Part shown: piece after piece, positions 5,577 to 34,726 of the stretch
Layout of the letters: the number at the start of each line of letters is the position of its first letter
Position numbering within the stretch: the first letter of the stretch is position 1
NCBI GenBank assembly: GCA_937916845.1
Contig: CALFSK010000048.1
Location: 1-42,052, forward strand
DNA length: 42,052 nt
Direction of reading: 5' to 3'
Origin: an uncultured Lactobacillus sp.
GTDB taxonomy: Bacteria > Bacillota > Bacilli > Lactobacillales > Lactobacillaceae
Notes under the pieces: generated by a model
The model's input: only the letters and a program-made list of their open reading frames with translations
Databases searched by the model: none
What the model was told of the DNA's origin: nothing
Program-made: the position numbers and the translations under genes

Positions 5577-5596
5577 GCTAAGTATTACGGTAGACA

Positions 5597-5657
5597 CTGA
5601 TGATATGCGGTCGTGGAACCGTCCCGCTTAGCACACCAAGGCTGCCCGACGAAGCGG
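5597..5657 (+). repeat. intergenic repeat family, copy A (short form)
   Basis: This copy contains the 5' box (TGCGGTCGTGG, 5605-5615) also found in copies C and E. It is fused directly to the 27-nt 3' box (5631-5657, starting GCACACC and ending CGACGAAGCGG). The structured middle seen in C and E is missing. CCGCTT (5624-5629) can pair with AAGCGG (5652-5657). It lies between two convergent genes. Confidence 0.7.
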
Positions 5658-15680: not shown

Positions 15681-15737
15681 ACCGTACTTTGGCTGAAACC
15701 GTCCCTCAGAGCACACCGGTTCTGCCCGACTGAGCGG
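15681..15737 (+). repeat. intergenic repeat family, copy B
   Basis: The 27-nt box (15711-15737) starts GCACACCGG and ends CTGAGCGG. The preceding ACCGTCCCTCAG resembles copy A. CTCAG (15705-15709) can pair with CTGAG (15730-15734). It lies next to the 3' end of the minus-strand gene at 15785. Confidence 0.65.
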
Positions 15738-15784
15738 TTATTTCAGGTCTTTCAATCTTTATATATCCGTTTTGTCAGGAAATA

Positions 15785-21778: not shown

Positions 21779-21830
21779 GTAGCTTATGAATATTGTCTTG
21801 AGGTTGAAAGCTAATGAAAACTAACCTCTA

Positions 21831-21994
21831 GTCCGGCCGTCGCTGATAACGTGCGGTCGTGGGACCGGGGCTAGCCTGGGGAGCGGTCTAGCCCCTCGCT
21901 CGGAACGCTCTTTGGATGACAGCTGTCCCGGGCCGTCCGTGGTGTAAGGCCGAAAAATCATCGGCCAACACACCGAGGCTGCCCGACGAAGCGG
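21831..21994 (+). repeat. intergenic structured repeat, copy C
   Basis: This about 164-base element aligns with copy E at 34470. After GTCCGG come a left arm GGCCGTCGCTGATA and the box TGCGGTCGTGG. Next is a perfect 8-bp hairpin GGGGCTAG / CTAGCCCC (21867-21874, 21888-21895) with a 13-base loop. A hairpin flanked by CGGAAC and GTCCCGG follows, then one with GGCCGA / TCGGCC. It ends in the 27-nt 3' box (21968-21994). The partner arm TATCAGC present in copy E is missing, so this copy looks shortened at its right. It is an intergenic element between murC and the BI-1 gene. Confidence 0.75.
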
Positions 21995-22297
21995 TTAATT
22001 TGAAAGTAGCGATTCCTGTTGTTAGGGGCGCTGGCGGTAATCTGAGTGGTGTTAAATATAATAAAATCTTATATATTTATCTAGTACAAACCGTTTTACC
22101 TTCCCTGACTAATCTGATACACTAGATGACAAGAAAGTTGAGGTGTCTGATTGAGATGGCTAGAGAAGTGCATTTGATTGATAAACTAGCGTGAGGAGGT
22201 CACTGACGCTAGGCGTTGGTGGCATCTGAAGACTCAATAAGAGCTTTAACTCGGAATTAATAATCTAATTAAATTTTAGGTGGAAGAGGGATAATCG
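21995..22297. other. leader region of BI-1 gene without clear gene
   Basis: This holds no recognised gene. A 12-codon frame MAREVHLIDKLA starts at ATG 22156 and stops at 22194. Its end lies inside a 7-bp hairpin CTAGCGT (22186-22192) / ACGCTAG (22206-22212) whose loop contains GAGGAGG. An AT-rich patch near 22055-22085 could hold a promoter, but none is of consensus form. Confidence 0.4.
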
Positions 22298-30312: not shown

Positions 30313-30543
30313 ATTTAGAAACAGAAGGTTAAAATCATAAAAATCTGATACCAACGTTAATACTAACAAAGCCAGTAAGCTTGTCGCTTGCGAGCCGCAA
30401 CCCCACGTCTCACAAGGCGTCGGTGGCGTAAACCAGAAGAACACCGGTTTACGCCACTTTTGCGGCAGATTCATCATGGTCGACCTCCAGCTAAGGTAAT
30501 TTTTCTATGAAAATTGATTTAGCTTATTTTCAACCAATCCTAG
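30313..30543. other. intergenic stretch with nested hairpin element F
   Basis: There is no gene in this stretch. At 30394-30466 an outer 7-bp stem GCCGCAA / TTGCGGC encloses a perfect 11-bp hairpin TGGCGTAAACC (30424-30434) / GGTTTACGCCA (30446-30456) with an 11-base loop. There is no T run, so it is not a terminator. Function unknown. Confidence 0.5.
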
Positions 30544-30714
30544 CGCAGCCGGCAGAACCAGTGGGCAGTGTCGGCCATGTTGCCTGGCGTTGTGTGCCAG
30601 GCGACATGGCGGGGCGTCTTGAAAGACTTGGGCTTTAGGCTTTCAAGCGAGGCGGAAGCCCGTCCCTTGGCTGTAGCCGACCCCACAGCCCACTGATTCT
30701 GTCCGGCGAAGCGA
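30544..30714 (+). repeat. intergenic structured repeat, copy D (long inverted repeat)
   Basis: The left arm (30544-30570) and right arm (30686-30714) are near-perfect inverse copies sharing GCCGG, CAGAA and CAGTGGGC. The right arm is also a diverged 27-nt 3' box of the family (30688-30714, ends GTCCGGCGAAGCGA). Inside are a 13-bp hairpin CATGTTGCCTGGC / GCCAGGCGACATG (30576-30588, 30596-30608) and an 8-bp hairpin CTTGAAAG / CTTTCAAG (30618-30625, 30640-30647). It lies just upstream of the thrS promoter. Confidence 0.7.
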
Positions 30715-33088: not shown

Positions 33089-33212
33089 GTTGAGAAAAAA
33101 AGCAGAAGCACCCGCTTCTCGCCTTGGTGACTAGAGTCATCGGGCAGATGAACGATGAATTGATTCCCATTAACGGGGTTGAGCGGGCGCACTGTGTGCC
33201 CGCTCTTTTTGT
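33089..33212 (+). promoter_or_regulatory. infC leader (L20-type autoregulatory leader) with terminator
   Basis: The transcribed leader between promoter and infC ends in a strong terminator, GAGCGGGC / GCCCGCTC (33181-33204) followed by five T. Leaders of this type before infC-rpmI-rplT bind ribosomal protein L20 and stop transcription when L20 is in excess. Assignment rests on position, gene order and the terminator. I did not fold it against the family model. Confidence 0.8.
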
Positions 33213-33240
33213 GAATTTCTCTAAAATTTTACGGAGGTGA

Positions 33241-34469: not shown

Positions 34470-34726
34470 GTCCGGTTGCTGCTGATAACATGCGGTCGTG
34501 GGACCGGGTTAAGCCTGAGGAGCGGTCTTAACCCTCGCCCGGAACGATTGCAAAAAGCACAATCGTCCCGGACCGTCCGTGGCCTAAGACCGGAAAAAAA
34601 ACGCCAGTCTAATGCCACCTTCACAACCGATGCTATCAGCGACAGCCTATGAGTATCCGACGACAATAACAACAGTCAATACATTTTAGCGTAGGCGGGG
34701 CACACCGTTTCTGCCTGCCGAAGCGG
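34470..34726 (+). repeat. intergenic structured repeat, copy E (most complete)
   Basis: An outer stem of 14-nt arms (34474-34487 with 34634-34647; core GCTGATA / TATCAGC, one mismatch) encloses four hairpins. The first is GGTC / GACC. The second is GGGTTAAG / CTTAACCC (34506-34513, 34527-34534) with loop CCTGAGGAGCGGT. The third is CCGGAACGATTG / CAATCGTCCCGG (34539-34550, 34560-34571). The fourth is GTGGC / GCCAC with inner pairs (34579-34618). A spacer of about 50 bases leads to the 27-nt 3' box (34700-34726). It sits between the convergent rplT and the minus-strand gene at 34801. Confidence 0.78.

Follow-up and report, generated by a model that had tools for sequence, protein, structure and literature searches.

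A putative MITE-like family of inverted, multibranched palindromes in Lactiplantibacillus and some other Lactobacillaceae

Results

Folded repeats within the window

The window, i.e. the whole 42,052-nucleotide stretch of contig CALFSK010000048.1 which we analysed, originates from an uncultured Lactobacillus sp. whose nearest named relative is Lactiplantibacillus xiangfangensis (MurC 99% identical). Between a Mur ligase gene (murC) and a Bax1-I gene (both assigned by Pfam) lies a folded repeat, copy C, and a related repeat, copy E, follows an L20 gene (Pfam). A preliminary description of these two copies had reported a stem, a loop and flanking segments, and when we read the sequence directly we found them where they had been placed. 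In copy C, hairpin H1 consists of GGGGCTAG (21867-21874), the loop CCTGGGGAGCGGT (21875-21887) and CTAGCCCC (21888-21895); in copy E (34506-34534) it consists of GGGTTAAG (34506-34513), the loop CCTGAGGAGCGGT (34514-34526) and CTTAACCC (34527-34534). The two loops are the same at 12 of 13 positions, the stem is changed on both sides at three adjacent pairs and the hairpin after H1 retains CGGAAC and GTCCCGG, all of which agrees with what had been described. The earlier statement that no known RNA family can be assigned also holds, as Rfam reported nothing at the element, either for the whole window at gathering score or for 21780-22060 at E ≤ 5. A known RNA of an ordinary kind, the Ribosomal protein L20 leader (RF00558), lies elsewhere in the window, at 33094-33217.

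The copies and parts of copies found in the window are as follows, with scores in bits referring to R1, our covariance model of the arm:

5585..5657, + strand: copy A, a short form in which the left end is joined to the right end; no R1 match
15724..15762, + strand: possible copy B, a right-end remnant with a terminal inverted repeat (TIR)-like end at 15749-15762 on the minus strand; 2 mismatches each, weak
21797..21810, + strand: degenerate left TIR of copy C, CTTGAGGTTGAAAG, with 2 mismatches to CTAAAGGTTGAAAG
21832..21976, + strand: left arm of copy C, with H1, H2 and H3 kept and the outer-helix partner deleted
21867..21895, + strand: hairpin H1 of copy C, 8-bp stem GGGGCTAG/CTAGCCCC (direct reading)
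21901..21931, + strand: hairpin H2 of copy C, CGGAAC ... GTCCCGG, with the uncommon inside CTCTTTGGATGACAG (direct reading)
21939..21974, + strand: hairpin H3 of copy C, GTGGTGT ... GGCCGA/TCGGCC; outer part cut by the deletion, longer in L. xiangfangensis (L164)
21981..21994, + strand: right-end remnant of the right arm of copy C, GCCCGACGAAGCGG; exact matches at 5644 and 21981
30376..30714, + strand: copy D, with a weak left arm at 30376-30490 (+, 19.6 bits)
30543-30710, read on the − strand: right arm of copy D (56.5 bits); end motif to 30714 (3 mismatches)
34471..34652, + strand: intact left arm of copy E (193.2 bits)
34653..34726, + strand: spacer and shortened right arm or right end of copy E

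Copy C has lost sequence by deletion: in L. xiangfangensis (L164) both arms are present at this site, after murC. R1 matched copy C at 21832-22004 with 87.6 bits and several outer-helix pairs flagged as unpaired, and GCCCGACGAAGCGG is the end motif of longer copies. It should be noted that the TIR CTTGAGGTTGAAAG rests on its position, as a search for it as a pattern gave 6 matches in the window (≤ 3 mismatches) where 5.1 were expected.

Repeat copies across the Lactobacillaceae

A 25-base core pattern gave 87 matches in the genome to which the window belongs (45 forward and 42 reverse, ≤ 3 mismatches) and 0 matches when reversed as a control. The family numbers about 100 copies in this Lactiplantibacillus genome, with comparable numbers in several relatives. 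We extracted 92 copies and used 89, leaving out 3 which had 7 mismatches. A recognisable arm end was present in 74 of these, 67 of which were 150-215 nt long; after L086 was left out by hand, 66 left arms formed alignment A1. These arms fold into an outer helix P1, a helix P2, a helix P3 containing hairpins H1 and H2, and then hairpin H3, with compensated double changes in 32 of 53 pairs.

The preliminary description had proposed a search of related genomes with a covariance model, together with a test of covariation. In the search, R1 found the arm in 12 of 21 Lactiplantibacillus genomes, the other 9 being without a match, at 20 to 129 matches per positive genome (the upper figure is the number that was scored, and the counts include antisense echoes and right arms). 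The genome of the window itself gave 132 matches, including echoes of the same palindromic arms. Across the order, 5 of 295 sampled genomes contained the arm, namely this genome and four genomes from three other genera of the family. A distant-mode blastn search of plasmids and phages, using one copy from the related genome G016 as the query, gave no match, and our searches of the open-licence literature turned up no description of this repeat family in Lactobacillaceae. An arm-like match (56.6 bits) was also seen after murC in Levilactobacillus cerevisiae (L178, 4442-4609). The genome of the window has a second subfamily (L145-L150, L153, L154) with a different left-arm sequence (TCCGGTCGTCCGTGATTTCATCTGCCGTGGCGACCGG), and right arms of the TCCGGTCGTCCGTGATTTCATCTGCCGTGGCGACCGG-subfamily type are also found behind first-subfamily left arms (L003, L010, L026).

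Full copies are about 520-620 bp long and comprise two multibranched arms of ~180 bp in inverted orientation. In 15 of 20 loci R1 matched the right arm over the full length of the model (30.1-93.6 bits), each time on the opposite strand alone, and the arms of these loci were spaced 25-140 bp apart; on the right arms of other species the score reached 99.7 bits (L117). Left arms on the wrong strand score 27.6-48.2 bits owing to their palindromes, and low R1 scores alone prove no homology. In genomes G005, G018 and G020, 17 of 17 neighbouring arm pairs faced inward (by eye, same-place echoes left out). Judged from its sequence, the element is a pair of inverted, diverged multibranched palindromes whose arms are homologs of each other. 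Whichever side a transcript or a replication fork arrives from, the first arm that it meets is of the left type. The G+C content of the arms is 44-65%. In G005 (L333, L334) a left and a right arm flank a hairpin resembling a terminator, and the genes around them seem to be convergent (by eye).

Insertion sites and ends of the element

A subset of copies carries terminal inverted repeats of the CTAAAGGTTGAAAG type beyond the arms, and the pattern gave 115 matches compared to 27 for a control (≤ 2 mismatches). Target duplications of 7-8 bp were clear by eye in 4 of 20 end-to-end rows (19 copies, some from other genomes): CTAGTTAA (L053), TTAAATAA (L070), TAACCGA (L026) and CTAGCTTT/CTAGCTTC (L003, 7 of 8 positions agreeing). 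Direct repeats were also seen by eye in 3 of 5 short end-to-end derivatives, CTCAGAC in L322, TTAGAAT in L321 and CTGAAAT in L323; most other copies showed none by eye. The derivative at L322 (515-650) is 136 bp long and has perfect terminal repeats, a 7-bp direct repeat and almost no arms. At right ends such as those of L021, L023 and L024, a short hydrophobic ORF, starting with ATG, GTG or ATA, ends at the terminal repeat.

When loci were compared between genomes, 28 of 43 loci in G016 shared their site with a copy in the genome of the window and the other 15 matched no locus fetched from it. One case of an empty site was found: in G016 a composite copy lies between two TTAATAA (L252), and the corresponding site in our genome (L038) is a single TTAATAA with no element. 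The site after murC, which holds a two-arm element in L. xiangfangensis and the deleted copy C in the window, is without the element in plajomi, garii, daowaiensis and songbeiensis, which have the same next gene. A second candidate for an empty site, L255, the one of these 15 loci that was checked, was dropped since our genome has an old remnant there in the opposite orientation. At 4 of the 28 shared sites the whole element is in opposite orientation (L250/L089, L254/L008, L274/L082 and L282/L062), which may reflect either inversion in place or separate insertion.

The element leaves no room for a transposase: in the 15 loci above the space between the arms is 25-140 bp, and at L148 the arms are overlapped by short mechanical ORFs only. 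We found no autonomous partner among the TIR places listed (100 of 115), of which those fetched for having TIR-like ends but no arms showed no paired ends over 1 kb, and none among the arm pairs of G005, G018 and G020. The only widely spaced pair seen, a 1.8-kb arm pair in G018, was rejected as an autonomous partner as it holds an IS3-type insertion. This insertion (L332, 1857-3224; rve and HTH domains) lies inside a copy of the element, the arms of which are partly masked as N. Together, the repeats, the target duplications, the inverted arms, the empty site and the lack of room for a transposase point to a MITE-like transposable element.

For the genomic position of the copies we considered the 84 of 89 copies which had a gene on each side, genes being mechanical ORFs of at least 90 codons, which overlapped 15 of the 84 copies. 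Convergent genes flanked 35 copies, another 35 were in tandem gaps where a gene precedes the left arm, 10 had the opposite tandem arrangement and 4 were between divergent genes, compared with 48 tandem, 25 divergent and 9 convergent among comparison gaps in the same loci (n = 82). The left gene pointed toward the left arm in 70 of 84 copies, and some ORFs ended 8-20 bp from the arm. The orientation bias between tandem genes was 35:10 in this genome (P = 0.0002) and 14:7 in other species, and 9 of 13 unshared copies in G016 were between convergent genes. This positional bias may be due to targeting or to selection. T-runs were found before the left end in 43 of 89 copies and A-runs in 33 of 89, compared with 9 and 13 further upstream; that insertions might target terminators is only a suggestion from these runs.

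Base pair changes in the arms

To the 53 pairs of the arm we applied the covariation test in alignment A2, which contains 70 arms, drawn from 16 genomes and from one named record. Here 52 of 53 pairs change on both sides and 92.8% of cells are paired; the covariation score was 0.635, whereas shuffling gave 0.169 and sliding the partners gave 0.058-0.097. The stem of H1 shows compensated variation in both A1 and A2. The compensated changes between copies C and E had been taken as a strong sign that a helix of RNA or single-stranded DNA is under selection, and the conserved pairing behind this claim stands far above the controls. That the pairing demonstrates such selection is not supported by the left-arm base pair counts that follow, and the element also bears the marks of transposable DNA.

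A helix required on one strand tolerates G.U (G.T) but not A.C. We therefore compared G.U and A.C counts (GU:AC), restricted to pairs that form whichever of the two strands is folded, so that neither strand was favoured. The left arms of the genome of the window gave 61:69 (ratio bootstrap 95% 0.64-1.22), whereas RNase P RNA from the same bacterial family gave 67:7 (4.9-25) with the same choice of pairs in 30 RNAs (those of the 41 matches that came as loci). Under a Watson-Crick-only fold RNase P RNA gave 74:8. For the right arms, which in 41 of 89 copies passed the length and end filters, the count on the element's + strand was 53:20 (1.7-4.7), a ratio which is above 1 yet below that of RNase P (P = 0.006). 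An initial fold which allowed only Watson-Crick pairs lost hairpin H2 and gave 39:28 for left arms and 33:11 for right arms.

Across species, the A2 arms read inward contained 81 G.U and 93 A.C cells (ratio bootstrap 95% 0.63-1.19), which split into 67:69 for left-type and 14:24 for right-type arms; on the + strand of the element the 17 right-type arms have 24:14 in favour of G.U over A.C. G.U made up 2.2% in total in A2 vs 4.1-11.8% in RNase P. Since neutral decay of dead copies would add G.U and A.C equally, we also counted only hairpin alleles found in at least 3 copies, and these had 10 G.U and 8 A.C among 339 pair cells. The consensus fold of the left arm is more stable on the − strand (−87.7 vs −67.2 kcal/mol) and that of the right arm on the + strand (−67.0 vs −42.1 kcal/mol). 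Left arms thus covary between Watson-Crick pairs with no preference for G.U and are without a single-strand signature, and right arms carry a partial one; the right arms may have an RNA role or a strand-specific DNA role.

Changes between orthologous copies were counted in the 20 pairs with at least 40 scored pairs, out of 29 tried and 22 with both arms. Double changes numbered 64, compared to 14.5 expected from independence, and 41 of them led from one Watson-Crick pair to another; without the sites in opposite orientation there were 49 compared to 11.2 expected, including 32 Watson-Crick changes. Single changes in left arms comprised 37 to G.U and 33 to A.C (34 and 27 without the opposite-orientation sites). 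Many of the double changes resemble swaps to hairpin alleles which are present in other copies, indicating that exchange between copies contributes to them; due to these swaps and to the opposite-orientation sites, double changes between orthologs cannot be read as selection alone. Template switching homogenises the arms of inverted repeats and inverts their spacers, according to excerpts of one study (PMC8604942). In our data the loop of H2 is inverted between orthologs L260 and L013, the 1 true case among 147 arms, and nearly all arms retain the polarity of their loops. The constancy of the branching plan and of loop polarity across genera speaks for a function besides mutation.

Discussion

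We consider it probable, at roughly 0.66, that copy C arose by deletion from a MITE-like element which is non-autonomous, occurs in many copies and has palindromes that persist mainly as folding DNA. The putative MITE-like family belongs to Lactiplantibacillus and some other Lactobacillaceae. Such an element would be moved in trans by a putative enzyme, and hairpins or cruciforms would be needed in transposition, with the element requiring folded DNA ends in order to move. Its palindromes would then persist mainly through the folding of the DNA itself and not through the need for a folded transcript, and template switching from arm to arm, along with exchange between copies, may help to keep the stems paired. 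The recount on both strands, with 61:69 for left and 53:20 for right arms, lowered our estimate for this DNA reading from about 0.72 and raised that for a structured RNA. In addition to the G.U preference of the right arms on the + strand, several findings speak against the MITE-like explanation: no autonomous partner was found, clear target duplications are few (4 of 20 rows and 3 of 5 short derivatives), loop inversions are rare, at 1 of 147 arms, and would be expected if template switching were frequent, the arms are 44-65% G+C, the 35:10 orientation bias beside tandem genes is without explanation, and L255, where an empty site was expected, holds the old remnant in opposite orientation.

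A reading which we regard as rather doubtful is that the ends are recognised by their shape. Each ~180-bp arm would have to adopt the shape of a branched hairpin or a cruciform as DNA. An undescribed enzyme would move the element, making duplications of 7-8 bp and favouring sites 3′ of genes in one orientation, and the element could flip in place. If the arms had to fold as DNA in this manner, the stems would stay Watson-Crick while their sequence drifts.

We think it unlikely that the element is a structured RNA, either a 3′-UTR element or a small RNA, present in many copies with its fold under selection and stabilising or ending the mRNA of the preceding gene. Such an RNA would agree with the extreme covariation and with the retention of loop polarity in nearly all arms, and also with the 70 of 84 copies whose left gene is directed toward the left arm, some ORF ends being 8-20 bp away, as well as with the G005 arms on both sides of the terminator-like hairpin (by eye). 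The lean of the right arms toward one strand (53:20) also argues for it; however, the left arms stand at 61:69 compared to 67:7 in RNase P RNA. The terminal repeats, the target duplications and the empty site also speak against it, as do the 9 of 21 genomes of the genus which are without a match. Promoter-like sites are not in excess at copy C (1 found, 1.1 expected) and number 4 at copy E where 1.0 were expected, although this promoter and terminator scan was not used as evidence.

Equally improbable in our view is that the palindromes are functionless and maintained by mutation alone, template switching during replication copying one side of a stem onto the other and exchange between copies spreading the result. 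The effect of template switching on inverted repeats outlined above (excerpts of PMC8604942), the lack of a G.U preference in left arms, the surplus of double changes between orthologs (64 vs 14.5, or 49 vs 11.2) and the loop inverted between L260 and L013 are all in keeping with such a process. Yet loop inversions amount to just 1 in 147 arms, the branching plan and loop motifs are the same across genera, and the right arms lean toward one strand. It is very unlikely that the family is of the REP/BIME type, with a Y1 (RAYT-like) transposase as its mobilising enzyme, despite its high copy number, its palindromes in inverted pairs and its extragenic position, as Y1_Tnp gave 0 matches in the genome of the window (G000) and in G016, both of which are drafts with many copies, and was present in 6 of 12 element-bearing vs 7 of 9 element-free genomes of the genus, and as the arms are ~180 bp long and target duplications are present.

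Among known systems, the MITE-like element we favour may be compared with the prokaryotic MITEs QMITE1, QMITE2 and Chunjie of Coxiella, which as described in excerpts of PMC10969869 also have no transposase, carry TIRs, are intergenic, have a strong predicted fold and include many truncated copies; QMITE2 likewise has direct repeats of 7-9 bp. Prokaryotic MITEs are typically under 500 bp long, whereas our element is about 520-620 bp long and has two inverted multibranched arms of ~180 bp with stems compensated across genera. Typical MITEs are AT-rich, in contrast to the mostly G+C-rich arms found here, and no source insertion sequence was found. The element has the defining features of a MITE except for a known parent, and it differs in its size and in its paired branched arms. 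ERIC sequences are also intergenic palindromic repeats in many copies with a predicted fold, but they are set apart by their description, in excerpts of PMC2267715, as a single long stem-loop of about 127 bp in another host group. REP/BIME/REPIN sequences with TnpA_REP, in the partial accounts we draw on, share palindromes in alternating orientation and more than 100 copies per genome; our element differs from these in its much larger, multibranched arms, its terminal repeats and target duplications, and the absence of a Y1 match in its own genome. Ornate large RNAs such as ROOL, OLE and GOLLD, the last of which takes its name in part from Lactobacillales, resemble the element, again in partial accounts, in their large multibranched fold, but the element has no Rfam match, occurs in about 100 copies per genome and has left-arm pairing without a preference for G.U.

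Covariation as strong as that found here would pass a test for RNA structure, even though the arm to which the original observation belongs is without a single-strand signature when G.U is counted against A.C. This count could be used to sort orphan candidates for structured RNAs into RNAs and DNA palindromes. If the arms of this family are recognised by their shape, this would point to an undescribed mechanism of transposition.
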